The position numbers and the translations under genes are program-made. 35,991 bases of DNA from a virus, in the IMG/VR virus record IMGVR_UViG_3300044623_000255, positions 1 through 35,991 of that record; one strand, given 5' to 3'. Below the pieces are notes generated by a model. It was not told the origin of the DNA. It did no database searches and was given only the letters and a program-made list of their open reading frames with translations. This document shows positions 508-18,429 of the stretch, piece after piece (the first letter of the stretch is position 1; every line of letters starts with the position of its first letter).

Positions 508-3500
508 TCAATACTCCACAATAAGTTTATCAACATCTTTACGTTCGGCATTAATCATGTAGAAGCAGTTGATGTTTGCGTTTCCACCAATGTATACTTT
601 GTTATCTTCAATTTTCTCAACATAAAGGGTTTGGTGTGTTCCAATTGGTGTCAACGTCACAGTAATCGATTCATCATCAATTAGCCATGTCCAGTATTCA
701 GGCAGTTCAATCACATTTGTATTAGTACGGCCACGAACATAGACACCGTTTTCAGGACCTTCAAGCGAACCGTGTCTTAGTTTATGGTTAGGCTTGCTTT
801 GATGGTCAATTACGAATGACTTTGTTTGAGCAGCAAATGAGCCAGCAACTTCCAGTTTATATGCTGAAGATGTAGTGCCAATGCATACATTACCAAAAGA
901 ATCAATACGTATGCGTTCGGTATTGTTAGTAGCAAGAATAATTGCAGCATCGCTATCAACGCGCATAATTGAACTGGCTTCATTGTAGTTAATGAAGGCT
1001 CTCTCAACTGAACCTATTAAAAAGTTGATTTTTGATTCCGTTGGATCTGAAACGGATAGTTTTGCGCTGGGACTAGATGTTCCAATACCAAAACTACCAC
1101 TATTGACATATGAAGAACCACCATCATTAGTAAATACGTATTTGATATTATTGGAAGCATCGACTCCAATTGTATAACCACGGACTCTTGCTGAACCTAT
1201 TACGTCTAAAGCATATGCAGGTGCGATTCCAATACCAACACGACCAGAAGTGTCTATGAATACTACACCAGTATCCGAAGAGTTTCTAAACTCATAGGAT
1301 CCGTCACCAGAACCAAAATATGTTCTACCGTTTGTTCCATAATAAAATCTATTTTTATTGTCATCTGAAACATGCCAAGTACTAACAGCAAACTTAGTGG
1401 CACCATTAAAGTATGATGTGCCACTAACTTGAAATTTATGTGATGGTGTTGCGCTACCAATGCCAACATTACCGTCGTGATTAACTCTCATAGCAATAGT
1501 ACCTGTGCCGGCAATATCACTACTGGTACCATTTGCCCAGAATATAAAACTGCCTGCCGGTGAAGAATAGTCAACGCCGATACCTGAATATTTGCTATTA
1601 TTTGAGTTGAACGTAATTACCGGATATGTCGCAACAAGATCAAGACTTTTGTTCCAACCTGCTGTCATGGCAGGACCGCCATTTATTGTCACACGACCAA
1701 CAGAAGATGTTGTGCCAATAGCAACATTACCTATAACACTCAACGTATTAGATGAAGGATTATATGTAAAACCTGGAGACGTTTGCGCTGTCTGGTTTGA
1801 GCCAGCATCTGTTACGAATACTGGAAATACAGTATCGTTAACTGTAACGGCAGTAGCGTTGATAAGAGTTGAAGGTCCAGTTGTACCTTGAACACCCAAT
1901 ATGCCTTGAATACCTTGGAATCCTTGAAGACCTGTTGTGCCTTGGATACCTTGAATACCTTGAGATCCTGTAGTACCTTGGATGCCTTGAATACCTTGAA
2001 TACCTTGAATACCTTGGAATCCATTAGCGCCTTGAATACCTTGACGACCTTGAATACCTTGAGATCCATCTGTACCTTGACGACCCTGAGTACCTTGTAT
2101 ACCTTGGAATCCATTGGCGCCTTGAATGCCTGTTGTACCCTGAGTGCCATTAGTGCCTTGAGTACCTGTTGTTCCTTGTGTCCCGGTAGTGCCTTGAAGA
2201 CCTTGGAATCCATTGGCGCCTTGAGTACCTGTTGTGCCTTGAATGCCTTGAGTGCCGTTAGCACCTTGACGACCTTGAATGCCCTGTGTACCTGTTGTGC
2301 CTTGAATGCCTTGAAATCCATTAGCACCTTGAGTACCTGTGGTACCTTGAGTACCAGTTGCGCCTTGAGTACCTGTCGCACCTTGAGTACCAGTTGTGCC
2401 CTGTGTGCCTGTGGTACCTTGAAGACCAGTTGTTCCCTGAATACCTTGAGTGCCGTTAGCACCTTGAGTACCAGTTGCGCCTTGAGTACCAGTTGTTCCC
2501 TGTGTTCCAGTAGTACCCTGAAATCCGTTAGCACCTTGAATACCCTGACGACCTTGAATGCCTTGAGATCCATCTGTACCTTGACGACCCTGAGTGCCTT
2601 GAATGCCTTGAAAGCCATTAGCACCCTGAGTACCAGTGGTGCCTTGAGTACCAGTTGTACCTTGACTACCATTAGTGCCTTGAGTACCAGTTATACCTTG
2701 GAATCCATTAGCGCCTTGGATGCCTTGACGACCTTGTAGACCTTGTACACCTTGAATACCCTGGAATCCGTTAGCACCCTGAGATCCTGTGGTACCTTGG
2801 ATACCTTGAAATCCGTTAGCGCCCTGAGATCCTGTGGTGCCTTGAATGCCTTGTAATCCATTGGCTCCTTGTATACCTTGAATACCATTTGCGCCTTGAG
2901 TTCCTGTTGTGCCCTGAATACCCTGGAACCCACTAGCTCCTTGTATGCCTTGGAATCCATTAGCGCCTTGACGACCCTGTAAACCTTGTATACCTTGAAA
3001 TCCATTAGCGCCTTGAGTGCCCTGTAGTCCCTGAAAGCCATTGGCTCCCTGAATACCCTGACGACCTTGAATACCTTGGAATCCATCTGTACCTTGACGA
3101 CCTTGAGTGCCTTGTATACCTTGGAATCCATTTGCACCTTGAGTACCAGTAGTACCTTGAGTACCAGTAGTACCTTGAATACCTTGTGTGCCTGTTGTAC
3201 CCTGAGTACCGGTTGTTCCCTGAGTGCCTGTTGTTCCTTGTGTTCCATTTATACCTTGGAATCCGTTAGCGCCTTGAGTGCCTTGAATACCTTGGAATCC
3301 GTTTGCGCCTTGAATACCTTGACGACCTTGAATACCTTGAGATCCATCTGTACCTTGACGACCCTGAGTACCTTGAAGACCCTGGAATCCGTTAGCGCCT
3401 TGAAGACCATCTGTGCCCTGACGGCCTTGAGTACCTTGTATACCTTGAAAGCCATTAGCACCTTGAAGTCCAGTTGTACCTTGAATACCTTGAAATCCAT

Positions 3501-4296
3501 TAGCACCTTGCGTACCTGTAGTGCCTTGAATGCCTTGACGACCTTGAAGTCCATCTGTGCCTTGACGACCCTGAGTACCTTGAAGACCCTGAAAGCCATT
3601 AGCGCCTTGAGAACCTGTTGTTCCCTGGATGCCTTGAAATCCGTTAGCGCCTTGTGTACCAGTTGTACCCTGAATACCTTGAACACCTTGAGTTCCCGTA
3701 GTACCTTGAAGTCCAGTTGTGCCTTGAGTACCTGTAGTTCCTTGAGTACCTGCTGCGGCTGCTAGAAGATCAGTACCGACGCCGGCCAAAGCTGACGCCA
3801 AATTGATATACACACCACGGGCCGAACCGCCTTGTTCAAAGATGCGGATTTTATCTTGATAAGCATCAATGGTTATACCGCCATTTAAATTTCCACTAGG
3901 TGGTTTTTCTAAAAGTATCTCACCGCCTTCATCACCACCTACTGCTCCGGCTATAAATTTACCACCACCTCTTACTGTCGTATCGCCATAAAATATTGGA
4001 TTATCTTTTAGACCAATGGTAATTGTATCGTTGATAGCACTACCAACAATGCTTATATTATTACCTGGTGTAATTGTTAGAATATCGCCTACAGTGTCAG
4101 CCACAAGTAATGTGCCATTAGCACTAACTGTACTGAAAGATAATATTGTTGGTGAAATTTCTACAATAGAACTTGTGGTGTTCTTATAGTACAGTTTACC
4201 GTCGGCAAAGTTAATCGCTAACTCGCCGTTCGCCAAATCTGCTGGTTTAGCACTTGGTGTGCTTGATTTTTTAAGCTGGATTGTTGTATTTGGCAT
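508..4296 (-). CDS. Collagen-like tail fibre protein (1262 aa)
   Basis: Long fibre protein with three parts. Residues 1-182 are a head that opens MPNTTIQLKKSSTPSAKPAD and continues ELAINFADGKLYY, the standard N-terminal module of cyanophage-type T4 fibres. Residues 183 to about 808 are an uninterrupted Gly-X-Y collagen-like rod of about 208 triplets (mainly GxQ, GTT and GAN) with no proline until its last triplet. The rest carries about five GIGTxxPxxKLxV modules and, from about residue 1154, a conserved C-terminal domain (SFVIDH..KPNHKLRHGSLE, then ERKDVDKLIVEY) widespread in marine T4-like fibres. The start overlaps the previous stop as TAATG, so translation is probably coupled. It probably trimerises as a side fibre. 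The receptor-binding part is inferred to be the C-terminal portion or a partner protein. No S74 protease signature was seen here, unlike the fibre gene at 10124-11539. Confidence 0.9.
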   Translation of the reverse strand: MPNTTIQLKKSSTPSAKPADLANGELAINFADGKLYYKNTTSSIVEISPTILSFSTVSANGTLLVADTVGDILTITPGNNISIVGSAINDTITIGLKDNPIFYGDTTVRGGGKFIAGAVGGDEGGEILLEKPPSGNLNGGITIDAYQDKIRIFEQGGSARGVYINLASALAGVGTDLLAAAAGTQGTTGTQGTTGLQGTTGTQGVQGIQGTTGTQGANGFQGIQGTTGSQGANGFQGLQGTQGRQGTDGLQGRQGIQGTTGTQGANGFQGIQGTTGLQGANGFQGIQGTQGRQGTDGLQGANGFQGLQGTQGRQGTDGSQGIQGRQGIQGANGFQGIQGTQGANGFQGINGTQGTTGTQGTTGTQGTTGTQGIQGTTGTQGTTGTQGANGFQGIQGTQGRQGTDGFQGIQGRQGIQGANGFQGLQGTQGANGFQGIQGLQGRQGANGFQGIQGASGFQGIQGTTGTQGANGIQGIQGANGLQGIQGTTGSQGANGFQGIQGTTGSQGANGFQGIQGVQGLQGRQGIQGANGFQGITGTQGTNGSQGTTGTQGTTGTQGANGFQGIQGTQGRQGTDGSQGIQGRQGIQGANGFQGTTGTQGTTGTQGATGTQGANGTQGIQGTTGLQGTTGTQGTTGTQGATGTQGATGTQGTTGTQGANGFQGIQGTTGTQGIQGRQGANGTQGIQGTTGTQGANGFQGLQGTTGTQGTTGTQGTNGTQGTTGIQGANGFQGIQGTQGRQGTDGSQGIQGRQGIQGANGFQGIQGIQGIQGIQGTTGSQGIQGIQGTTGLQGFQGIQGILGVQGTTGPSTLINATAVTVNDTVFPVFVTDAGSNQTAQTSPGFTYNPSSNTLSVIGNVAIGTTSSVGRVTINGGPAMTAGWNKSLDLVATYPVITFNSNNSKYSGIGVDYSSPAGSFIFWANGTSSDIAGTGTIAMRVNHDGNVGIGSATPSHKFQVSGTSYFNGATKFAVSTWHVSDDNKNRFYYGTNGRTYFGSGDGSYEFRNSSDTGVVFIDTSGRVGIGIAPAYALDVIGSARVRGYTIGVDASNNIKYVFTNDGGSSYVNSGSFGIGTSSPSAKLSVSDPTESKINFLIGSVERAFINYNEASSIMRVDSDAAIILATNNTERIRIDSFGNVCIGTTSSAYKLEVAGSFAAQTKSFVIDHQSKPNHKLRHGSLEGPENGVYVRGRTNTNVIELPEYWTWLIDDESITVTLTPIGTHQTLYVEKIEDNKVYIGGNANINCFYMINAERKDVDKLIVEY
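1874..3750 (-). repeat. DNA encoding about 208 collagen-like Gly-X-Y triplets
   Basis: A 1.9-kb stretch of degenerate 9-bp-based tandem repeats (complement of GG-N-N-N-CAA type codons) encodes the collagen rod. Larger blocks recur, such as GANGFQGIQ, GTQGRQGTDG and GIQGRQGIQGAN, which indicates expansion by duplication of multi-triplet blocks as well as single triplets. All six frames are largely free of stops here, which produces long spurious reading frames on both strands. Confidence 0.95.
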
Positions 4297-4933: not shown

Positions 4934-6568
4934 TTAGAAAGTGCCTCCATCAAGCATACCGAACAATGGTGTACCCTGAGCGTTTACCTGAAGAACATTT
5001 CCTTCTGTGCCTGCTGCGGTAACTCTGATTCCACTTGTAGTATTACCGAATAGAATACCATTGTTTGCGAATGTTGTTCTACCTGTACCACCAACCGATA
5101 CGCCAACCACACCTGTAGTTATGTATGTACCATTAGCAGCATTAGTATTTGCGCCGTTGATGATAGGAATCAAGTAGTTATTAGCGCCAGCACCAACTGC
5201 TGTGTTAGCGCCCGCAATTACAGCCAAGAGGTAATTGTTAGCACCAGCACCAACCGCTGTATTTGCGCCTGCTATGGTAGCAGCAGCAAAAGCATTAGCA
5301 CCAGCACCAACTGCGGTATTAGCTCCTGCTATGATAGAAATTAGATAGCTGTTAGCGCCTGCTATTGTCGCAGCAGAGAAAGCATTTGCACCTGCACCGA
5401 CTGCTGAGTTAGCACCAGCAATAGTAGCAGCAGCAAAAGCATTAGCCGCAGTACCAACACCAGCGATTGTTAGGATTGCGTTAGCACCACCAAGAATCAA
5501 GTTGCTTGTTCTGATTGTAGCATTAAGGACTGCTAAACTGAAACCGTTCGCTGTTGTGTTAATATGATTTGGAATTGGTTCTTGATTGTAACCATCAAAA
5601 ACATAGTATTCCTTTACTGTCGCATCGCGGAAAATACCAGTGTGTAGATTTGCTGAACCAGTGTTATAGTTACCTACAAAACCAATATCAACAATGTCGG
5701 AAGTATAGTTGTTACCAGCAAGATAAATTAGAGGATCGGAAACTCTTAGTGTTTCTGTGTCAATTGTAAACGCATTGCCGGATACTGTCAAACTACCTGT
5801 AATCGCAAGATTGCCTGTGATAGTTTGATTAGCTGCTACACGCTTAATAAATGTTCCGTCAGCGTAGTTGTTGGCACCAGCAGCGGCAGCAGTAGCAAAT
5901 GCGTTAGCGCCCGCGCCTACTGCGGTATTAGCTCCTGCTATTGTCGCAGCAGAGAACGCATTAGCACCAGCACCTACCGCAGTATTAGCACCCGCAATTA
6001 CAGCAAGTAAGTAGTTGTTAGCGCCAGTAGAAGCAGCAGTTGCGAAGGCATTAGCACCAGCACCGACTGCTGTGTTAGCACCTGCAATTACAGCGAGTAG
6101 ATAGTTATTGGCACCTGCACCAACTGCGGTATTAGCACCAGCTATTGTCGCAGCAGAGAAAGCATTAGCACCTGCACCAACTGCGGTATTAGCACCTGCT
6201 ATGACAGCAAGTAGATAGTTATTAGCACCAGCGCCTACACCTGCTGAGGTAGAAGAAGCAAATGCGTTAGCGCCAGCACCAACAGCAGAGTTTGCGCCTG
6301 CTATTGTGGCATAAACGTTTGAATAGGAATTGGCAGCAGTAAAAGCGGCAACTGCTCTATCATTTGCTGTATTTGCTGCGCTGAAAGCTTGAATAGCGGT
6401 GTTAACATAGTAGCGGCCGCCAATTTCAATTACTTGAGATCCATCGGAAGAACCGATGAATAACTTGTCGGAAAGATATGAATACGCTGGTTCCGCAGCA
6501 GATAGCGAACCAGCCGTAGGCGCGGTTGTTACCGTGCTTCTTTTAATTTGAATGACTGTATTCGCCAT
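4934..6568 (-). CDS. Tail fibre protein with AGAN repeats (544 aa)
   Basis: The N-terminus MANTVIQIKRSTVTTAPTAG followed by LSAAEPAYSYLSDKLFIG is the fibre-head module also present in the 508-4296 protein, and it probably anchors to the same baseplate or fibre site. Two blocks of AGANxAVGAGANxF repeats (about residues 87-237 and 376-480) flank a central domain with an ITGNLAITGSLTVSGN motif and a DPLIYLAGN..DIGFVGNYN region, typical of T4-like cyanophage fibre/structural proteins. The C-terminus ends FGMLDGGTF; the four-residue GGTF ending is shared with the next gene upstream. A GGAGGAAC ribosome binding site is formed by the last codons of the upstream gene, and the ATG follows that gene's stop directly. 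Probably a trimeric side fibre or baseplate appendage. The exact role is inferred. Confidence 0.85.
   Translation of the reverse strand: MANTVIQIKRSTVTTAPTAGSLSAAEPAYSYLSDKLFIGSSDGSQVIEIGGRYYVNTAIQAFSAANTANDRAVAAFTAANSYSNVYATIAGANSAVGAGANAFASSTSAGVGAGANNYLLAVIAGANTAVGAGANAFSAATIAGANTAVGAGANNYLLAVIAGANTAVGAGANAFATAASTGANNYLLAVIAGANTAVGAGANAFSAATIAGANTAVGAGANAFATAAAAGANNYADGTFIKRVAANQTITGNLAITGSLTVSGNAFTIDTETLRVSDPLIYLAGNNYTSDIVDIGFVGNYNTGSANLHTGIFRDATVKEYYVFDGYNQEPIPNHINTTANGFSLAVLNATIRTSNLILGGANAILTIAGVGTAANAFAAATIAGANSAVGAGANAFSAATIAGANSYLISIIAGANTAVGAGANAFAAATIAGANTAVGAGANNYLLAVIAGANTAVGAGANNYLIPIINGANTNAANGTYITTGVVGVSVGGTGRTTFANNGILFGNTTSGIRVTAAGTEGNVLQVNAQGTPLFGMLDGGTF
5130..5440 (-). repeat. 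AGAN repeat block, 3' part of fibre gene
   Basis: Encodes consecutive GAN-containing units in which successive AGAN motifs are spaced alternately by 8 and 11 residues. The DNA units are near-identical to those at 5860-6310 and 10750-11380. Confidence 0.85.
5860..6310 (-). repeat. AGAN repeat block, 5' part of fibre gene
   Basis: About ten imperfect units of the same 8/11-residue AGAN pattern. The 29 bases at 6048-6076 are identical to 11106-11134 in the second AGAN fibre gene, so the two genes share substantial tracts for recombination. Confidence 0.85.
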
Positions 6569-7239: not shown

Positions 7240-8496
7240 ATGACCGAAGAAACCGAAATCATGACCCTTGCGGAATATTTCAAAGAAAAGAAGTATGCTA
7301 TTGTGGATTCTGCTGTTCCAGTGGATATCTGTCAAAATCTATCGGATTATATCTTAAAACTGGTAGAAGACAAGAAAACGACAAAAGATCCGCAATGTCC
7401 TTTGTCGGAATCAATCTATGGCGATCCTATGTTAGATATTCTTTTAGAGGATGTTCGTCCGACTCTGGAAAAAGCAACTGGTCTAAACCTTATTCCAACA
7501 TACTCATATGCCAGAAAATATCTACCTGGCAATGAACTAAAACCACATCTCGATAGAGAAGCCTGTGAAATCAGTGCAACAATCACACTTGGATACGAAG
7601 GGGATTTGTGGCCAATCCACGTTTCGACAGATGATAAAGTAGAAAATGATATTGGTGAAATCCTTATTGATGTTGGAAGTATGGTAGTTTACAGAGGCAC
7701 GGAAATTAATCATTGGAGAGAACCATATACTCAGGGAAAATGGCAGTGTCAAGTATTTCTTCACTATGTTGATGCTGATGGTCCGCATAAGGATCTCAAA
7801 TATGACGGCAGAGAATCTTTAGGTACTAAAAAAATAATAGAATCCAATAATTCTAATAGTGATGAGTCAATAGAATCCAATAATTCTAATAATGATGAGT
7901 CATTAGATTCCTATTGGTTTTTTGGTTATGTTCCACATACCAAATGTCTATACATGACCAGAGAAGGTGTGTTATCCGCACCTTTGATCGATTCTATTAT
8001 TTTACACGGCAGTAAGAATACTGAGTTAGCTAGAATTGGTAGCAGAGATTTCAACAGTGAGGGTGTTGTCGATACGAAGATTCGAAATGTCTCGCATTCA
8101 TGGTTACCATTTGATAAGTTCGGTTGGCTTTATTCATTATTAGAAGAAGAAATCAAAAATATGAATTGGTTAAACTTCAAATATGTTTTGAATCAAATGG
8201 AAAAAATTGACTATCTAGAATATTATGCTGGCGAAGAAGCTGGTAAGTACGATGCTCACATTGATGGTGGTATAAATTCAAATAGAAAGTTATCATTCTC
8301 AGTTCTACTATCAGACCCAAGTGAGTATGATGGAGGTGATTTGATCATATACGAAGGTAAAAATCCAATGATTATTCCTAAACGCCAAGGAATGATGACA
8401 TTTTTTCCATCAAATGTTTTGCACGAAGTTACTCCAGTAACAAGAGGCGTTAGACGGTCTATCGTCTCTTGGATACATGGACCAGTTTTCTGTTAA
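7240..8496 (+). CDS. Tandem-domain 2-oxoglutarate/Fe(II) dioxygenase (prolyl-4-hydroxylase/PKHD-like), 418 aa
   Basis: Two complete oxygenase domains in one chain. Domain 1 (about 1-195) has the iron ligands H103 and D105 (KPHLDREAC) and distal H158, with Lys167 the likely 2-oxoglutarate anchor. Domain 2 (about 225-418) has H340 and D342 (YDAHIDGG), then SVLLSDPSEYDGGDL, distal H395 (SNVLHEVTPV) and R405/R406, the layout of PiuC/PKHD-type hydroxylases. A low-complexity linker (about 199-223) contains a duplicated IESNNSN.DES unit. The enzyme class couples decarboxylation of 2-oxoglutarate to hydroxylation; the substrate here is unknown. It is the only plus-strand gene among the fibre genes, has its own promoter-like sequence and TTGGAG site, and overlaps the convergent neighbour by 4 bases. 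Nearby candidate substrates include the polyproline stalk at 13960-14199. Enzyme class is confident; substrate is inference. Confidence 0.92.
   Translation: MTEETEIMTLAEYFKEKKYAIVDSAVPVDICQNLSDYILKLVEDKKTTKDPQCPLSESIYGDPMLDILLEDVRPTLEKATGLNLIPTYSYARKYLPGNELKPHLDREACEISATITLGYEGDLWPIHVSTDDKVENDIGEILIDVGSMVVYRGTEINHWREPYTQGKWQCQVFLHYVDADGPHKDLKYDGRESLGTKKIIESNNSNSDESIESNNSNNDESLDSYWFFGYVPHTKCLYMTREGVLSAPLIDSIILHGSKNTELARIGSRDFNSEGVVDTKIRNVSHSWLPFDKFGWLYSLLEEEIKNMNWLNFKYVLNQMEKIDYLEYYAGEEAGKYDAHIDGGINSNRKLSFSVLLSDPSEYDGGDLIIYEGKNPMIIPKRQGMMTFFPSNVLHEVTPVTRGVRRSIVSWIHGPVFC
7837..7902 (+). repeat. Two tandem 33-bp repeats in the oxygenase linker
   Basis: Units 7837-7869 and 7870-7902 differ at one base. 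They keep the reading frame and encode an 11-residue Ser/Asn/Glu/Asp-rich unit twice, lengthening the interdomain linker. Confidence 0.9.
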
Positions 8497-10123: not shown

Positions 10124-11539
10124 TTACTTCTTTAATTCCTCAATTTCCAACTTCATAGATTCTACTTGCGTGCTTAGTTCTTTGATTGCTTCAATAAGAA
10201 GAGAAACAATCTTATCGTATTTAACTGTTTTATAATTCTCACCTGATTTAGATGTTCCATCATCTGCAATGTCGAATGGTGCTGGAACTACTACTTCAGG
10301 AAGAACAGCTTCAACCTCTTGAGCAAGAACACCAGCAAATCTGTTTTCGTCTGTATATCCAAATGATTTGGCTAGATCATTATGTCTATATGTAATACCT
10401 GTAATTAACTTTACCTTAGATAAAGCGTCAACAATTATTTGAATATCGCCTTTCAATCTAGCATCGGAACTAAATGCTGTAATATCATCAGTCGCGGTTA
10501 TAGCGCCAGATACAGCAAGTGATGATAGTCCTGAGATAGAACCGCCTGAAATTGATACCGAGCTTGAAGCTTGTGTGGCCATTGTGCCAAGACCTAAACC
10601 GCTTCTTGCCGTAGCTTGATCATTGCCTCCTGTACCGCCATATGTAACAGAAATTGCAGTTCCATTCCAAACACCTGTTGTGATTGTGCCTACGCCTGTA
10701 ATTCTCGCAGAAGGAACTGTACCTGATGTTAAGTTTGTGGCATCTCTTGCGGCAGTATTAGCGCCATTTAGTGTAGCTATAGTGAAGTTATTAGCACCAG
10801 CACCAACTGCTGTATTAGCACCTGCTATAATAGCACGTAGATAGTTATTAGCACCAGTACCCACAGCAGAATTAGCACCTGCTATTGTGGCAGCAGAGAA
10901 AGCATTAGCACCAGCACCTACCGCAGTATTAGCACCTGCTATAATAGCACGTAGATAGTTATTAGCGCCACCGCCAACTGCTGTATTAGCACCTGCTATT
11001 GTGGCAGCAGAGAAAGCATTAGCGCCAGCACCGACTGCTGTATTAGCACCATTTAGTGTGGCTGTAAAACTAACACCTGATGTTGAACTTATTGATAAAG
11101 CATAAGCATTAGCACCAGCACCGACTGCTGTGTTTGCCCCAGCTATGGTAGCCGCAGCAAAAGCATTAGCACCAGCGCCCACAGCAGTATTAGCTCCAGC
11201 AATAGTTGCTTTAGCAAAGTTATTAGCACCAGCACCGACTGCTGTGTTTGCTCCAGTTATAACAGCTAGAAGATAGTTATTAGCACCTGCTATTGTGGCA
11301 GCAGAAAAAGCATTAGCACCCGCACCGACTGCTGTATTAGCTCCAGCTATTGTGGCTGAAGCAAAAGCATTTGCTGTTACACCAATGTTGTTAGCATATG
11401 CGTAAGAAGGAGAATTATTGCTTTTATTATACAGAAATAACATATCGTTTTCATAAACATTACTTTGAACGACCAGCTGATTTGTTCTAGTGCGCCACTC
11501 ATCAAATGTGTTTGTTAGTGCTACGTTTGCTAATGCCAT
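10124..11539 (-). CDS. Tail fibre with AGAN repeats and C-terminal S74 intramolecular chaperone (471 aa)
   Basis: After a short head (MALANVALTNTFDEWRTRTN, then QSNVYENDMLFLYN), residues of about 55-262 are AGANTAVGAGAN repeats. A short beta-rich segment with VTYGGTGGNDQATARSGLGL follows. The C-terminus from about 356 is a Peptidase_S74 domain: SSDARLKGDI provides the Ser358/Lys363 dyad, followed by ALSKVKLITGITYRHN and FAGVLAQEVEAVLPEVV, and a final coiled coil (IKELSTQVESMKLEIEELKK). S74 domains trimerise, guide fibre folding and then cut themselves off, so the mature fibre probably ends near residue 357. It is followed after one base by the glycine-rich adhesin-like gene. It probably forms a trimeric receptor-binding fibre. 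Confidence 0.9.
   Translation of the reverse strand: MALANVALTNTFDEWRTRTNQLVVQSNVYENDMLFLYNKSNNSPSYAYANNIGVTANAFASATIAGANTAVGAGANAFSAATIAGANNYLLAVITGANTAVGAGANNFAKATIAGANTAVGAGANAFAAATIAGANTAVGAGANAYALSISSTSGVSFTATLNGANTAVGAGANAFSAATIAGANTAVGGGANNYLRAIIAGANTAVGAGANAFSAATIAGANSAVGTGANNYLRAIIAGANTAVGAGANNFTIATLNGANTAARDATNLTSGTVPSARITGVGTITTGVWNGTAISVTYGGTGGNDQATARSGLGLGTMATQASSSVSISGGSISGLSSLAVSGAITATDDITAFSSDARLKGDIQIIVDALSKVKLITGITYRHNDLAKSFGYTDENRFAGVLAQEVEAVLPEVVVPAPFDIADDGTSKSGENYKTVKYDKIVSLLIEAIKELSTQVESMKLEIEELKK
10750..11380 (-). repeat. AGAN repeat block in the S74 fibre gene
   Basis: About 630 bases of imperfect repeats encoding GANxAVGAGANxF units with alternating 8- and 11-residue spacing. 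It shares exact tracts with the fibre gene at 4934-6568 (for example 11106-11134 with 6048-6076). Confidence 0.85.
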
Positions 11540-11763: not shown

Positions 11764-14700
11764 TTAAACCTGTAATGCTATTGTTCTTAGATCAGCAACT
11801 CTTGGAACAACTGCGCTGTTTCCACCATCAATACAACCAAGAAGACCGACTTTGATCTGGAATGATTTGAAAGACTTAAATGTCACACCTGCAGTGTTTA
11901 AGTATGTGAATATTCCATCAGTGTCCAAAGATGTTGCTGGCAAGACAAACTTATATTCTTTGAAATCATTCTTGTTTGCGAATGAGGAATATGTGCTGTC
12001 ACCACCATAAATCTTTTCCATTTCAATCCAGTTTATTTGTGCCATAGGATCTGAATCTTCGCCATTCAACAGTTTGATCCAAACTTTCACATCTGTTGTT
12101 GGTGGACGATAAGCAGTTAAGAACACATTCATATCTTCAGCATCTTGGAAATCTGCTAGAGTTATGATCTTTGAGATGTACTTGTTAAATAACTGTCCAC
12201 CATCTGTTTCGTTTTCACCAGTAACATCTGAATTTATCAAGTTATCAACGATAACAGAATGTGATCTTGAAAGATCAAATATTGGAGTCAGATAGTTTGT
12301 ATCCGTAGACATTGTAATTCTAACTCTATTAGAACGCGCTGAACCCAAATTAGCAACTTCATTAGAACGAGAGAAAATTGCCTTTTCTTCGTCAAAGGCA
12401 TAGTTTTCACCAGCATCAAAATTGAAATATGTATCGATACCACTTCCACTTGAATTTGAACTTACTGCCATTTCATATACAGTTCTAGTGCCAGCAAAAT
12501 TGATAATTGTAGGCTCAAAATCTACAACAGAATATCTTTGATTTTCTATAGATTCAATAGTTCCATAACCCTCATCTGAAATATCAAATACAATTTCACC
12601 ATTTGAGAACAAGCTATTTGAATTGGTCAATATCATTTGAGTTTTTGTTGGAGATTCCTTATAATATTCAAGATATCCAATGCCTCTACCGATAGTAGCG
12701 ATGCTACTTACATCTGAACTATCTGATGATGCTTTAACAACACCATTTGCTCCATACCTAATCGTCACAGCTTCACTAGAAGCAAATCTAATGTTTGATG
12801 TTTTATAGGTACCACTAGAAACACTGATAACCTTAGCGTTGATTCCAGATGTTTTGCCGATGATAAAGTCGCTTGTATTAGCTTGAATTCCAGTTAGAGT
12901 GATTCTTTCTCCTGTTACGAAAGGCTCGCCAAATCCTTCTAAGCTGCCAACAATATCTTTCATGTAGAACTTTTCTTTTGGTTTATTTCCAATTTCAAAT
13001 GTTCCTGTTCCTGTATAGAATGCTGCTCTATACCACTTACATGTTAGATCGATTTGGTCTTGTAGAACCCAAATCGTATCATTGTTTGTTGTAAATAGTG
13101 TACCAGTCCAAGAACGACTATTCACTGGTTGCCCTGTGTTAATATCAGTCTGACCGATTCTTGACATCCAGAAGTAATAGTTTGGATTGCCTGCTTCTGG
13201 ATGAATAATAAACGCATATGATTTATTAGCATATAGGAATATTGGTGCTTGGAAATTGACCTTTAATCCATTTGTTCTTCCATCAGTTGAAATTGGAATT
13301 TCACCGTTTCTAAACCATACAGCAGATAATGGAACAGCATTTCTAGTAATACCGCCACCAGCATCAAGTTCTCTAACTTCACACCACATTCCAAGTGTAG
13401 GATGTTTTTCCGCACAGAATATTTCAACGGCTGACAAGAATATGCCCTCTTCAGTTCCAGGAACTTTAATAGGTAGCACATATGCCATACAGACACCGCT
13501 ACCCGAACCACTCTTATTGTGTGTTAAGAAGTCTTCAACCCAATATGTGTGATCTGAAGTATCATCAAGAGTTAGAGCATATACTTTATTATTAGCGTCA
13601 TCTTTTTGTGTAACAATCTCATTAACTGGGACAAATCCACTTGTATGAAGAACATCTTCATTATTAGTCATTGGATCCCAATTGATGTTTGTAACATTAT
13701 CACGAACAAGATGATTGTGATAATCGCCAATCTTGTAAGATGACCAACCTTTATTTGTCAAGAATGGATGATCTTCAGTAGCGAATGGCTCATGACCAGC
13801 AAAACCGTATATTTCTCTATTACCAAGATCAGTGATGATAATATCGGTTACCATCGCACTACCAGTTCTGCTAAGAACTTTATCGCCGTTCTCAACATCA
13901 CAAATTGCTTTCTTAGTACCGTCGGCCATAGTTACCATAGCATAAGGCACAAAGCAACATATTGGTTGCGGCCTAACTGGCGGTGGTGGCGGCACAATTC
14001 GCGGTCTGCGCGGCGGCGGCGGTGGCACCGGAGTAGGCGGTGGCGGTGGCGGCGGCGGCGGAATATAAGGCGGCGGCGAAGGCGGATTCGGCGGTGGAGG
14101 TGGAGGTGGTACCGGCGGCAACACTGGAGGTGGTGCTGGCGGCGGTGGCTCAGGTGGTGGTGGCGCAGGAGGAGGTGGTGGCGCAGGCAATGGCGGTAAA
14201 GTATCAAATGTATTGTAGCCAACACTCTCAGTTAAAGGAGTACTTCTTACATCAACCTGTCTTGTTGAAAGAATTGTTTCTTGCTTAGTTTCGATCATGC
14301 CTTGAGCAAAGAATGTCTTTGTGGCATAAGATGTTTCTTCGGATGTATTTGTCATACTATCCGTAATCTTAACTACCTTTGAACCTACAGTAAATCTTAA
14401 GTTATTCGAATTTGGCAAACTTAATCTAAACCACAACTGTCCTTCTGGATTGGCTAGAAGATCATCACCAATAGAGAATGTTGGATTTAAAGTATCAAAA
14501 CTGAGATATTCATCATAAGTTATTGGTCTGACATAACTTGTCATATCAATATTGTCAAAGAATATCTTATATTTTGCGTATGGTTTAATACCACTAACAG
14601 ATCCTATCAATACCTGAGGTCTGATATAAGGCACAATTTCGGTACTTACAAGTTTAGTTCCTGTAGAAACGGTATCCTGATCTACAAATGTATATGATTC

Positions 14701-17700
14701 CGAACCAGTTCTATCATTTTGATAAGATGTTTCAATTGTTGCGCCAAGTGATGTTGTTCTAATATTTTGAGCTTGATTGTACGCTTCATTGTATGTTGAG
14801 TATGTTCCAATTAATACTCTACTATCTGCTGTTTCTTGATAAACTTTATATCCAGTAATATGAGTTTGCCAAGCGTTCCATGTAGTTGTTACCCCACCAA
14901 CTTGCTGGGCATCTGCTAAACCATCAAGATTTGCATCTGAAAAAGATACTGTTTGAGGAGTTAGAGTTGTTGTATCAACCCATATGTCACTATCTGGAAT
15001 AAGTGTCATATTTCCAATAAAGGCATATGATGATTTTTCTGTGTTTATTGTAGCAGTAACAGAGGATACGTTAGCATACTCAACTTCATAGTAATCGAGA
15101 GTGACTATATCGTTTATTCTTCTTACGTTTGCTCCTGATAAGTAGTCATAATCAATAGACTGCATAGAGTATAGAGGACGAATGCTATTTTCAGCAGGAT
15201 CTACAACAATACGGTAATCTTCATTTGATGTGTCGCCTAGTGTGTGATTACGGAAAGTATCAACAAAGATACCATTTTTAAATCTATCAACACCAGCTTC
15301 ATCTTGAATTAACATATCAGCAGCACTCTTCTCTAACAAACTAAGAGAAGCATAATACTCAAGACTTGCAATTCTGTTCTTCATAACGCCAAGATCACGC
15401 ATTGTCTGACGAACAGGAGCAATTTTTCTACTTGCACATGCGATATCTTGTCTGCCTATAAGTTTAGCATAGTATGGAGAGATAGATGGAAATGGAGCAA
15501 TAGTTAATTGAGCAAGACCCAATTCATTTTCTGGTATTTGTGGTGTAACAGGGAAAGGTCCTGGTTCTCCCTGCGTAATAGTAAACACTTTATTTTTACT
15601 TACAGAAACGATATCTTTTCTTGCCACATAATATGAGTAATCAAAGTCAATCTCAGAAGATGGTGAAACCAAAGCAAGAGAGCTTAATGTGAAGTTAAAT
15701 GTGTTTGATTTTCCTGGACTTACTGTTACACTAGCACTTGCAGGATCTGTTATGTCGTTGGCTGTAAGTGACTTTACAGGTCTAAAATCAATATAATTTC
15801 TTAAGTCATATTTCCTACCAGACGATGGAGATTTGTAGATAGGAATTTCGGCTGTACTTATTGTTGAGCTTGAAGATACAAGATCGTTTACTGGATAAGA
15901 ATCAACAGTAAAGAATCCTTTACCTACTGAGAAGTCAGGTATAAAATAATCCAATTCAACAAGAAGTCTGTCTGCTGTAGTAAGACTTGTTGTTGGTTTA
16001 ATAGTGGCCAAATCATATAGAGTATCTTTTTGACCATTGTTAAAGAGGAATTGAGATGTAACTACTGTTCCATCAGTATTTGATGTTGGGAAACTCGAAG
16101 TTTTCTTTACGATACTCTTTATTCTATAAACGTCAGAGAATCCAAGATTATAAGGCCCAGTTGTGCCTGAGGCAGCAGCGGCACAATTGATCTTAACGTA
16201 TCTGCTTGGTCTTAATGTTTTGCCTGTTTGTATAGCATCCGTTCTTGATATTCTGAAAGATACCGCTGCTGTTGTAGATGCTGGGAAAGTTTCACCTAAA
16301 TTAAACTGTAATGTTTGAGTGCCTCCGATAACTCCAACAGTACGAGAAGTTCCAGTTGCCATACCAAATGATGTTAGATCAATGTAGCTACCAGCACCAT
16401 AATGTCTATACATTACACTACCACCAGTAGGTGTAGCATACATGAAAGCTTCTGCAAGTTGTAATTCTGTATCGCTTGTAGGTGTAGTCAAAACAGTGTA
16501 TGTATTAGAGTGCCCTGTAAACTGAATCTTTTCTCCAGCTGTTAAGCGTCTGAAAGTTGTGCCAGATCCTGTGATAACATTTGATCTTGTTTCGCCTAGA
16601 GTTTCTGTTGTTGAATTTGATGAGAAATTTCCCATAGCAACATTTACTGGTGTATTTTCTAGACTTAAGAAGATTTCTCTCTTGTCTGTTGTCGATAGTG
16701 TCCCTGTATAAGGAACATTGGCACCAGCAACAGATGCGGTAAATGTACCATAACTACCAGAATCGGTAATTGTTACTGGTATTGTTGTGGTATAATAATA
16801 AGTTGTTTTTGAAACATCGCCGTTACTTCCGTCTCTTACTTTTCTGGTAAAGTTCGAACCTGTGTAATACAATAGAGGTCCGTTAAATGGCTCTCTTAAA
16901 ACTGTATTGTTTGTTGTAATATCTGGAACAATATCGGCACCAAAATCAGCAAGGCCCGCACCATTATCGATATACAAACTCTTTACAGAGGAAAAACTAC
17001 TGCTTCCTATCATACGAATATCTGATAGATAGATATCTGCTCTACCATCAGATGTTCCTAATACACCACTGTTATATTCAATACTCATTACAGTGGCTGT
17101 ACCGATAATATTGCCTATAGCTGCTGCTGTAAATATGCCATTTGAAATTCTTCTATTATATGTATCAAGAAGAGTTATTTCTGTGCCTTCGTCAAGTTCA
17201 AAATGACCTACCATGTTATTTGCTGTAACATAAGATCCCATAAAAGCGGATACGATTTGAGAACTGACATTAGTATAATTTAAAGATTTAGGAGTTGAAA
17301 GATATTCAGCAACAGCAGTTCCAACTTCATATCCCTTAACATAAGCTGTACCAGCACTTATACGAACTGCTATAACATTAGCATCAGGATTTTCTGAAGC
17401 GGCAACTAAACCACCATTTGTTCCTGAATCAGCATTTTCTCTAAGCTCAACATCTAGACCCGAAACATAGTAATCTCCAGACTCGTCAAAGGTTCTCTTC
17501 GCAAGTTCATCTTTAAGAATACTGTATTCGGTTCTTTGATTATATGTTTGAATTACACCTTCTTGAATAGTGAAGAGAGTTGAAAAATCTGGAACACCTG
17601 ATGTATCATCAAATGCGCGAGATTCAAGAACTGCGGACAATCTCAAACGATCTGCGCCAGGTGCGGAATAGTTAGAAGACTCAAGAGCAGGATCAAGCAG

Positions 17701-18429
17701 ACTGCTATCAAGTGTATAATCGACAATATTTTCTACAATATTAAATCCAACTTTAGCTGTTGGTTTATCATTGTAACGATCTAAAATAACTTCTTGTTCT
17801 GGGAAATATATAAAATGTTCTTTAGCAAATAGAACGCCTTCTGTAATACGGAAAGCTGATCCTTTACCTAAAGGATTTGTTGCTGATGATAGAACTACAA
17901 CATTACCTACATTCGATACAAGAGTTTCATCAGGAGAAAATGTTTTTTGTGCTGTATTTGCTAAATCAACTGATAGATAATCAACATAGAGTGTTTTGGC
18001 ATTGGTATTAGCACTAATTTCTGAACCGTCGGCAACAATACTAATCTGTGCTGTAACATTAGAAGTTGCGCCACGGACTATAACACCATCAAAGTTAGAA
18101 AGTGATATTGTATTGCCTGTATTATCAATATCTTTGATCTTTACATAATTGAGAGGTCCAGTTGAAGAAATGTTATTGGCAAAAAGTTGGAAATTGCCAG
18201 GAATAACAACAGTGCCTTCTTTGAAGACATGTCTACCAAATCGCGTAATCTGCTTTTGCAGAATTGTCTGCATTTGAGTAAGTTCGCGGCCTTGTACGGC
18301 AAATCCAGGCTTATAGAGGATTCTGTAATACTCTTTGGTATCTTTGTAATCATCATAATATGGAGTTACATTCAAATCTGTCGATAAGTTGTAAGCCTCT
18401 GTATTTGCGTAATCTGAACCTACAGTCAT
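11764..18429 (-). CDS. Giant DUF4815-type baseplate protein with polyproline stalk and internal Hint domain (2221 aa)
   Basis: Residues 1 to about 1000 match the DUF4815 class of T4-like cyanophage structural proteins (MTVGSDYANTEAYNLSTDLN..., then YKPGFAVQGRELTQMQTILQ). This continues to about 1410 with the usual wedge-like region ending RQVDVRSTPLTE. There follows an insertion: an 80-residue tract with 56 prolines (1411-1490), then a 147-residue Hint domain (C1492 to N1638) and a GSGSG linker. The family C-terminal part then resumes (EEGIFLSAVEIFCAEKHPTL onward, to SPVI-type wedge domains at the end). If the Hint domain is active the chain would be cut into about 1491- and 583-residue parts. 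A GAGGAAA site precedes the ATG. The gene follows gp8, where T4 has its gp9/gp10 peripheral baseplate genes. The peripheral-baseplate role is inferred from position. Confidence 0.9.
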   Translation of the reverse strand: MTVGSDYANTEAYNLSTDLNVTPYYDDYKDTKEYYRILYKPGFAVQGRELTQMQTILQKQITRFGRHVFKEGTVVIPGNFQLFANNISSTGPLNYVKIKDIDNTGNTISLSNFDGVIVRGATSNVTAQISIVADGSEISANTNAKTLYVDYLSVDLANTAQKTFSPDETLVSNVGNVVVLSSATNPLGKGSAFRITEGVLFAKEHFIYFPEQEVILDRYNDKPTAKVGFNIVENIVDYTLDSSLLDPALESSNYSAPGADRLRLSAVLESRAFDDTSGVPDFSTLFTIQEGVIQTYNQRTEYSILKDELAKRTFDESGDYYVSGLDVELRENADSGTNGGLVAASENPDANVIAVRISAGTAYVKGYEVGTAVAEYLSTPKSLNYTNVSSQIVSAFMGSYVTANNMVGHFELDEGTEITLLDTYNRRISNGIFTAAAIGNIIGTATVMSIEYNSGVLGTSDGRADIYLSDIRMIGSSSFSSVKSLYIDNGAGLADFGADIVPDITTNNTVLREPFNGPLLYYTGSNFTRKVRDGSNGDVSKTTYYYTTTIPVTITDSGSYGTFTASVAGANVPYTGTLSTTDKREIFLSLENTPVNVAMGNFSSNSTTETLGETRSNVITGSGTTFRRLTAGEKIQFTGHSNTYTVLTTPTSDTELQLAEAFMYATPTGGSVMYRHYGAGSYIDLTSFGMATGTSRTVGVIGGTQTLQFNLGETFPASTTAAVSFRISRTDAIQTGKTLRPSRYVKINCAAAASGTTGPYNLGFSDVYRIKSIVKKTSSFPTSNTDGTVVTSQFLFNNGQKDTLYDLATIKPTTSLTTADRLLVELDYFIPDFSVGKGFFTVDSYPVNDLVSSSSTISTAEIPIYKSPSSGRKYDLRNYIDFRPVKSLTANDITDPASASVTVSPGKSNTFNFTLSSLALVSPSSEIDFDYSYYVARKDIVSVSKNKVFTITQGEPGPFPVTPQIPENELGLAQLTIAPFPSISPYYAKLIGRQDIACASRKIAPVRQTMRDLGVMKNRIASLEYYASLSLLEKSAADMLIQDEAGVDRFKNGIFVDTFRNHTLGDTSNEDYRIVVDPAENSIRPLYSMQSIDYDYLSGANVRRINDIVTLDYYEVEYANVSSVTATINTEKSSYAFIGNMTLIPDSDIWVDTTTLTPQTVSFSDANLDGLADAQQVGGVTTTWNAWQTHITGYKVYQETADSRVLIGTYSTYNEAYNQAQNIRTTSLGATIETSYQNDRTGSESYTFVDQDTVSTGTKLVSTEIVPYIRPQVLIGSVSGIKPYAKYKIFFDNIDMTSYVRPITYDEYLSFDTLNPTFSIGDDLLANPEGQLWFRLSLPNSNNLRFTVGSKVVKITDSMTNTSEETSYATKTFFAQGMIETKQETILSTRQVDVRSTPLTESVGYNTFDTLPPLPAPPPPPAPPPPEPPPPAPPPVLPPVPPPPPPPNPPSPPPYIPPPPPPPPPTPVPPPPPRRPRIVPPPPPVRPQPICCFVPYAMVTMADGTKKAICDVENGDKVLSRTGSAMVTDIIITDLGNREIYGFAGHEPFATEDHPFLTNKGWSSYKIGDYHNHLVRDNVTNINWDPMTNNEDVLHTSGFVPVNEIVTQKDDANNKVYALTLDDTSDHTYWVEDFLTHNKSGSGSGVCMAYVLPIKVPGTEEGIFLSAVEIFCAEKHPTLGMWCEVRELDAGGGITRNAVPLSAVWFRNGEIPISTDGRTNGLKVNFQAPIFLYANKSYAFIIHPEAGNPNYYFWMSRIGQTDINTGQPVNSRSWTGTLFTTNNDTIWVLQDQIDLTCKWYRAAFYTGTGTFEIGNKPKEKFYMKDIVGSLEGFGEPFVTGERITLTGIQANTSDFIIGKTSGINAKVISVSSGTYKTSNIRFASSEAVTIRYGANGVVKASSDSSDVSSIATIGRGIGYLEYYKESPTKTQMILTNSNSLFSNGEIVFDISDEGYGTIESIENQRYSVVDFEPTIINFAGTRTVYEMAVSSNSSGSGIDTYFNFDAGENYAFDEEKAIFSRSNEVANLGSARSNRVRITMSTDTNYLTPIFDLSRSHSVIVDNLINSDVTGENETDGGQLFNKYISKIITLADFQDAEDMNVFLTAYRPPTTDVKVWIKLLNGEDSDPMAQINWIEMEKIYGGDSTYSSFANKNDFKEYKFVLPATSLDTDGIFTYLNTAGVTFKSFKSFQIKVGLLGCIDGGNSAVVPRVADLRTIALQV
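13516..13956 (-). other. Hint (bacterial-intein-like) autoprocessing domain within the DUF4815 protein
   Basis: Residues 1492-1638. Block A is CFVPYAMVTMADGTKKAICD followed by VENGDKVLS. Block B has the TxxH signature in ATEDHPFLTNKGW. The C-terminal blocks are VYALTLDD, then HTYWVEDFLTHN, ending in His1637-Asn1638. All splicing-type catalytic positions (Cys1, Thr/His, terminal His-Asn) are present and there is no homing-endonuclease insert. The residue after Asn is Lys1639 rather than Cys/Ser/Thr, as in A-type bacterial-intein-like domains, which favours cleavage over clean splicing. Confidence 0.88.
13960..14199 (-). repeat. Polyproline-encoding tract (80 residues, 56 Pro)
   Basis: GC-rich run of CCN codons encoding residues 1411-1490, with proline runs up to nine long broken by Ala, Glu, Val, Asn, Ser and Arg. 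It should form a stiff polyproline-II stalk directly before the Hint domain. Spurious Arg/Ala-rich reading frames appear on the other strand here. Confidence 0.93.

Follow-up and report, generated by a model that had tools for sequence, protein, structure and literature searches.

A predicted Hint domain followed by a conserved lysine at the module junction of a phage baseplate-associated protein

Introduction

Why would a phage baseplate protein carry, between two parts that its relatives join by a short linker, a domain resembling those of inteins, BIL domains and hedgehog proteins? The question is raised by a 2221-residue protein encoded in IMG/VR virus record IMGVR_UViG_3300044623_000255, whose 35,991 nucleotides are the stretch of DNA analysed here (the window). 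The answer we favour, with a probability of about 0.6, is that the domain is an active autoprocessing Hint of a viral class ending in His-Asn followed by Lys (HNK), that it lies in a flexible linker and that it separates or rejoins the body of the protein and its C-terminal module (C-module); this reading is drawn from sequence comparison and predicted structures.

The host protein and its surroundings

The protein belongs to the DUF4815/VrlC baseplate proteins, as PF16075 scores 152.9 bits in Pfam against a cut-off of 30, phrog_358 in PHROGs matches with E=0, and genes for baseplate wedge subunits adjoin the gene; phi812 ORF65 (9euf) is a solved relative. A near-DNA search with the window matched no phage records. 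The parts of the gene, in window coordinates, are as follows.

11764..18429, minus strand: DUF4815/VrlC baseplate protein gene, 2221 aa (PF16075, phrog_358)
14218..18429, minus strand: body (N-part), residues 1-1404; relatives align up to about 1402
13960..14199, minus strand: Pro-rich linker, residues 1411-1490, read from sequence
13516..13956, minus strand: predicted Hint domain, Cys1492-Asn1638, from structure prediction, fold search and profile matches
13954..13956, minus strand: Cys1 (Cys1492), expected N-terminal nucleophile; aligned to intein residue 1 and class-invariant
13768..13779, minus strand: block B TEDH, Thr1551-His1554, from sequence; His invariant in all aligned Hints
13516..13521, minus strand: His1637-Asn1638, expected C-terminal cyclisation site; aligned to the intein terminal HN and invariant
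13513..13515, minus strand: +1 Lys1639; Lys in 21 of 21 aligned class members, with +1 left free in the scans
13495..13512, minus strand: short Ser/Gly linker, residues 1640-1645; length and sequence vary among relatives
11767..13494, minus strand: C-terminal module, residues 1646-2221; separate gene in several phages, with a match to phi812 ORF65

The sequence-only reading of this locus had placed a Hint at 13510-13956, a span that does hold the domain and runs on over Lys1639 and Ser1640. The Pro-rich linker ahead of it differs in length and sequence among the related proteins of L002, L003 and L005. A second cysteine at -1 (Cys1491, window 13957-13959, minus strand) directly precedes Cys1 and is also present in most DUF4815 Hints (window, L002, L003, L005, L134, L207, L225, L227 and L264); it is conceivable that it acts as a redox lock on Cys1. 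The plus strand has an Arg/Trp-rich ORF of 143 aa (window 13768-14199); it is only antisense to the Pro-rich linker and the Hint, and no gene.

Several neighbouring tail genes deserve mention in their own right. A collagen-repeat protein of 1262 aa (window 508-4296, minus strand; PF01391, 325 bits) is likely a tail fibre, and a 2OG-Fe(II) oxygenase gene (window 7240-8496, plus strand; PF13640, 63.2 bits), which lies in the tail cluster on the opposite strand, is a neighbour of a collagen-like fibre gene and of the gene for the Pro-rich baseplate protein; a prolyl hydroxylase acting on both products is conceivable. Two fibre-like proteins (window 4934-6568 and 10124-11539, minus strand) have one long repeat in common (TIAGANTAVGAGANAFSAA), which suggests, at the sequence level, repeat exchange between tail genes.

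Fold and catalytic residues of the Hint domain

An AlphaFold2 model of the domain, built from ten related Hints (pLDDT 80.8, pTM 0.79), found Hint folds throughout its top solved matches, spanning BIL, intein and hedgehog structures. The first of these was Tetrahymena thermophila BIL2, with a Foldseek E of 1e-8 and a VIA Z of 19.3 (rmsd 2.0, 139 aligned), followed by the gp41-1 intein (Z 17.6), the Clostridium thermocellum BIL (Z 16.8) and hedgehog (Z 15.3). Model residue 5, which is Cys1492, corresponds to intein residue 1, and model residue 151, Asn1638, to the last intein Asn; because of the former correspondence Cys1492, rather than Cys1491, is taken as Cys1.

In Pfam the isolated domain stays below the cut-off of every Hint family, with Hom_end_hint at 26.6 bits (cut-off 32.1) and Vint at 24.9 (cut-off 27), while relatives of the same class reach the cut-offs. 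The structure prediction and profile search proposed earlier thus gave a matched Hint fold on the one side and, on the other, Pfam matches that are consistent yet below the cut-offs. For the superfamily assignment we let the predicted fold outweigh these scores, and residues 1492-1638 are settled as a Hint domain by the predicted structure. Neither PHROGs nor NCBIfam holds a specific family for it; phrog_21587 takes in a Hint related to the L213 type described below.

The residues expected of the superfamily are in place, with Cys1492 at position 1 and His1554 in block B, and the Cys1, the block B His, the HN and the Lys are invariant over 21 divergent clusters of the HNK class. Chance resemblance to a Hint is ruled out by the structure match together with this conservation. 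The original proposal of a Hint/BIL-like domain with intact catalytic residues in a baseplate-associated protein is therefore borne out by the fold match, Cys1492, TEDH, His1637-Asn1638 and the lack of an endonuclease. At the position of the intein block F Asp the window Hint has Ala, which suggests, from the sequence, an altered coupling of the reaction steps.

The junction in related phages

Hint-less relatives pass from the body through a short linker to a C-terminal module that opens with a DPLAQTF-like motif. The alignment to such homologues that had been called for is provided by Ochrobactrum phage OC, which aligns to the window protein in two stretches, 9-1402 and 1648-2220, separated by a 38-residue linker. 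It had been claimed that the Hint is inserted exactly where family members run straight on; the junction is indeed crossed by Hint-less relatives, but the Pro-rich linker is missing there too, and linker and Hint together make up about 240 residues absent from the relatives. A model of the C-module (residues 1645-2221, pLDDT 73) matches residues 791-1152 of the phi812 DUF4815 protein (9euf chain 0; Z 18.5, rmsd 3.8, 351 aligned), and this match, with the direct crossing in Hint-less relatives, places the Hint at a module boundary. None of 80 loci in a sample of relatives picked by their C-module carries a junction Hint, which makes the Hint-bearing state the rarer one; the C- and N-terminal samples pooled together contain 101 fused, Hint-less loci.

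Where Hints do occur at or near this junction, five arrangements can be told apart.

Type A: body, Hint (HNK) and C-module in one chain (window/L001, L002, L003/L004, L131); also with the body gene truncated or broken earlier (L005/L016, L134, L233)
Type B: gene stops 19-37 residues past HN and is directly followed by a gene for the C-module (L207, L225/L249/L212, L227, L264)
Type C: gene ends in a second Hint type without HN, with a small gene between it and the gene for the C-module (L024/L026, L027/L125, L029/L124); the L024 contig stops ahead of the C-module
Type D: Stenotrophomonas phage DLP6, whose first gene ends in a third Hint type (...YSHNASISYEKM) and whose second gene is the C-module
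Type E: HNK Hint and a C-terminal DLP6-type Hint within one protein (L271, L209)

Body and C-module are thus separate genes in eight lineages (DLP6, L026, L027, L029, L207, L225, L227 and L264), in which the upstream gene still terminates in a Hint, of three sequence types; in DLP6 the two genes overlap by one base. By manual count, 8 of 13 lineages with a Hint have a separate C-module vs 5 of 106 without a Hint, and the Fisher p of about 2e-6 is descriptive only, given different searches and non-independent loci. Separately encoded C-modules begin 5-11 residues ahead of the motif, and in fused forms 2-16 residues lie between HN and motif; it is mainly this agreement that argues for the border between Hint and module as a real protein end. 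The suggestion that a C-terminal piece of some 583 residues could exist on its own is upheld by DLP6 and several uncultivated phages, where it is a separate gene with an equivalent start. For the small gene that lies between the genes of body and C-module in L026, L027 and L029, an acetyltransferase was considered on the strength of one sub-cut-off Pfam match, and no use is made of that reading.

A lysine after the terminal asparagine

To address the residue after HN, 2.9 million viral contigs were scanned with two DNA patterns in which residues inside the Hint were fixed and +1 was left free. The first scan gave 76 in-frame Hints with Lys at +1 in 69, Ser in four, Cys in two and Arg in one; the second, with a different N-terminal pattern and overlapping the first, gave Lys in 52, Cys in five and Gly and Ser in one each. 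Merged at 80% identity they form 35 clusters, of which 21 have Lys, seven Cys, five Ser, one Arg and one Gly; at 50% identity they form 20, with Cys in seven, Lys in six, Ser in five and Arg and Gly in one each. The number of lineages behind the lysine rule is thus between 6 and 21, according to the threshold applied. The residues at -1 and +2 vary among the clusters. From their context, the viral Hints with Cys or Ser at +1 look like ordinary inteins.

Bacterial genomes, searched with a profile built without +1, yielded 26 distinct full-length Hints ending in HN, with Asp next in eight, Glu in five, Ala in four, Lys and Cys in three each and other residues in three, and four bacterial or plasmid control Hints have Glu, Ala, Ala and Cys. 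Among +1 residues other than Cys, Ser or Thr, Lys accounts for 21 of 23 in viruses vs 3 of 23 in bacteria (p 1e-7, with the two sets clustered differently). The viral DNA pattern found no HNK Hint in genome contigs, and tblastn found no close relative of the class in named phage records.

The L324 protein has three tandem Hints, each with HNK and with only KADD between the first two; tandem Hints within one phage protein also occur in L229, L222 and L221, and the proteins of L017-L021 terminate exactly at HNK. Because of the tandem HNK units, the proteins ending there and the +1 counts, Lys is best regarded as a working part of the Hint, not an accident of the C-terminal partner. HNK accordingly denotes a large viral Hint class with Lys at +1 as its signature. 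The view of Lys1639 as the mark of an odd, splicing-impaired intein finds no support in that form; as a class signature the residue is under selection, and it may itself act as the acceptor.

The largest HNK cluster (L213, L210; viral contigs) comprises Pro-rich proteins of unknown function, and the class is not limited to baseplates, since the L213 gene lies near a major head protein gene. In bacterial genomes from the phylum of G003, Hints in long proteins (L375, L376 and L378-L389) show a recurrent VHN-[D/E/A/N]-(E)-K-G motif, with Lys at +2 or +3.

Selection and movement of the Hint

Values of dN/dS for the Hint are 0.10 (window vs L002), 0.18 (vs L003) and 0.13 (vs L005), and by this measure the domain is under purifying selection. 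Between L005 and the window the Hint is 76% identical in amino acids (76% in nucleotides) and the flanks 25% and 31% in amino acids; this Hint has therefore either been transferred from one DUF4815 protein to the corresponding junction of another, diverged one or been gene-converted. It has no homing endonuclease inside, and its 147 residues leave no room for one.

Proposed autoprocessing and its alternatives

In related domains Cys1 forms a thioester and the terminal Asn cyclises, and BIL domains without a +1 nucleophile cleave (PMC4031507, PMC7765530); going by titles cited in these papers, some such BIL domains splice and ligate. By the same scheme Cys1492 would form a thioester at 1491/1492, where the Pro-rich linker ends, and Asn1638, aided by His1637, would cyclise, cutting the chain at 1638/1639. 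Lys1639 would become the new N-terminus of the C-terminal module (1639-2221) and may take up the thioester; the 147-residue Hint would leave, and body (1-1491) and module would be two chains or be rejoined at Lys1639. The two-chain outcome would be the arrangement that other phages encode as two genes. That these reactions occur, in this order and with this role for Lys, is what we infer.

Separating the halves is not the general purpose of the class, given HNK-ending proteins and same-class Hints beside a separate C-module; Lys as acceptor, or thioester transfer elsewhere, would fit the split-gene and HNK-ending cases better than plain separation. In the first of these, the amine of the +1 Lys (side-chain or freed alpha) would attack the thioester at Cys1 and form a stable amide, possibly an isopeptide bond, with the parts rejoined, a version that we hold only tentatively and consider unlikely. 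Hedgehog-like transfer of the body to an outside nucleophile such as a virion protein or a surface amine, with the C-terminal cut secondary, would explain why Cys1 is kept in all three junction Hint types, even the HN-less type C, and agrees with other phage tail proteins that carry Hints at their extreme C-terminus; it has no known acceptor, however, and pure N-terminal chemistry needs neither the HN nor the Lys that the window class strictly keeps, which leaves it rather improbable.

A passenger with no assembly role, a mini-intein-like element that ligates at Lys1639 and restores a neutral linker, would account for the movement between diverged proteins (76% vs 25-31% flanks), the permissive low-complexity linkers and the tandem arrays. 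Such an element would be expected to fare badly with the lack of a homing endonuclease, with one junction hit repeatedly by three sequence types, also in phages with a separate C-module, and with class members that have no C-terminal partner past Lys; we consider it very unlikely. The lowest probability goes to an inactive spacer whose fold is kept purely for structure, to which the block F Ala and the flexible linkers could point, but which should have lost the Cys1, block B His, HN and Lys that divergent members keep, and with which the low dN/dS disagrees. We thus return to an active autoprocessing Hint as the preferred reading.

Significance and other phage Hints

The literature searched, on Hint and BIL domains in phage tails, baseplates and DUF4815 and on lysine or isopeptide inteins, contains inteins in phage enzymes and terminases and no description of the window class, of rejoining through lysine by any Hint domain, or of Hint autoprocessing of structural proteins as a step in virion assembly. 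A class with a fixed +1 Lys at a baseplate site of split genes makes the idea of processing during assembly testable, and if Lys is the acceptor it would be a +1 residue of a kind new to protein splicing and could offer a tool for ligation. Cultured carriers of related Hints without the Lys (DLP6 and Xanthomonas phages XacN1, LucasX and PhiXhv-12) are open to virion proteomics.

A second phage Hint type (L119, L120, L121, L033), with a Gly-rich linker, Cys1 and a terminal HN plus 7-9 residues, has no Pfam match and ends tail proteins of XacN1, PhiXhv-12, LucasX and DLP6; in PhiXhv-12 the next gene contains a degenerate copy.

Comparison with known systems

A-type BIL domains, defined by a terminal His-Asn and the lack of an intein-type +1 nucleophile (PMC7765530), are represented among solved structures by the C. 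thermocellum BIL (2lwy, Z 16.8) and T. thermophila BUBL1 BIL2 (6y75, Z 19.3). With these the window Hint has in common the fold, Cys1, the terminal His-Asn, and the absence of an endonuclease and of a +1 Cys, Ser or Thr. They differ in that +1 is variable in A-type BILs and a conserved Lys in the window class, and in that the latter resides in virion proteins, with 22-26% identity to solved BIL domains; as for location, A-type BILs lie in variable regions of proteins that are not conserved, and the window Hint agrees with them in part, its linker being variable and its host a conserved baseplate protein.

Class 1 mini-inteins (gp41-1, Ssp DnaB) likewise have the fold, Cys1, a block B TxxH and the terminal HN in common with the window Hint, which lacks the usual +1 nucleophile and lies in a variable linker instead of a conserved enzyme site. 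A true intein is ruled out by Lys1639 at +1 (not Cys, Ser or Thr), the missing endonuclease and the variable site. The pretoxin Hint profile (PT-HINT, PF07591) covers nearly the whole domain weakly, below its cut-off (E 0.0035), and a toxin-releasing role was rejected as the part downstream matches the baseplate protein's own C-terminus, so that the C-terminal partner is the protein's own module. A hedgehog Hog domain was also rejected, since it needs a C-terminal Hint and a sterol-recognition region, and here the Hint is succeeded by 583 residues of baseplate module.

Hint-less DUF4815/VrlC proteins (cyanophages, HTVC008M, phi812 ORF65) have the body and C-terminal module in common with the window protein, with a short linker in place of the Pro-rich segment and Hint and a single continuous reading frame. 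On predicted fold and residues, the window domain would thus be of a viral BIL/Hint kind, new in its class-conserved +1 residue and its conserved virion protein host, and the lysine might bring new chemistry as well.
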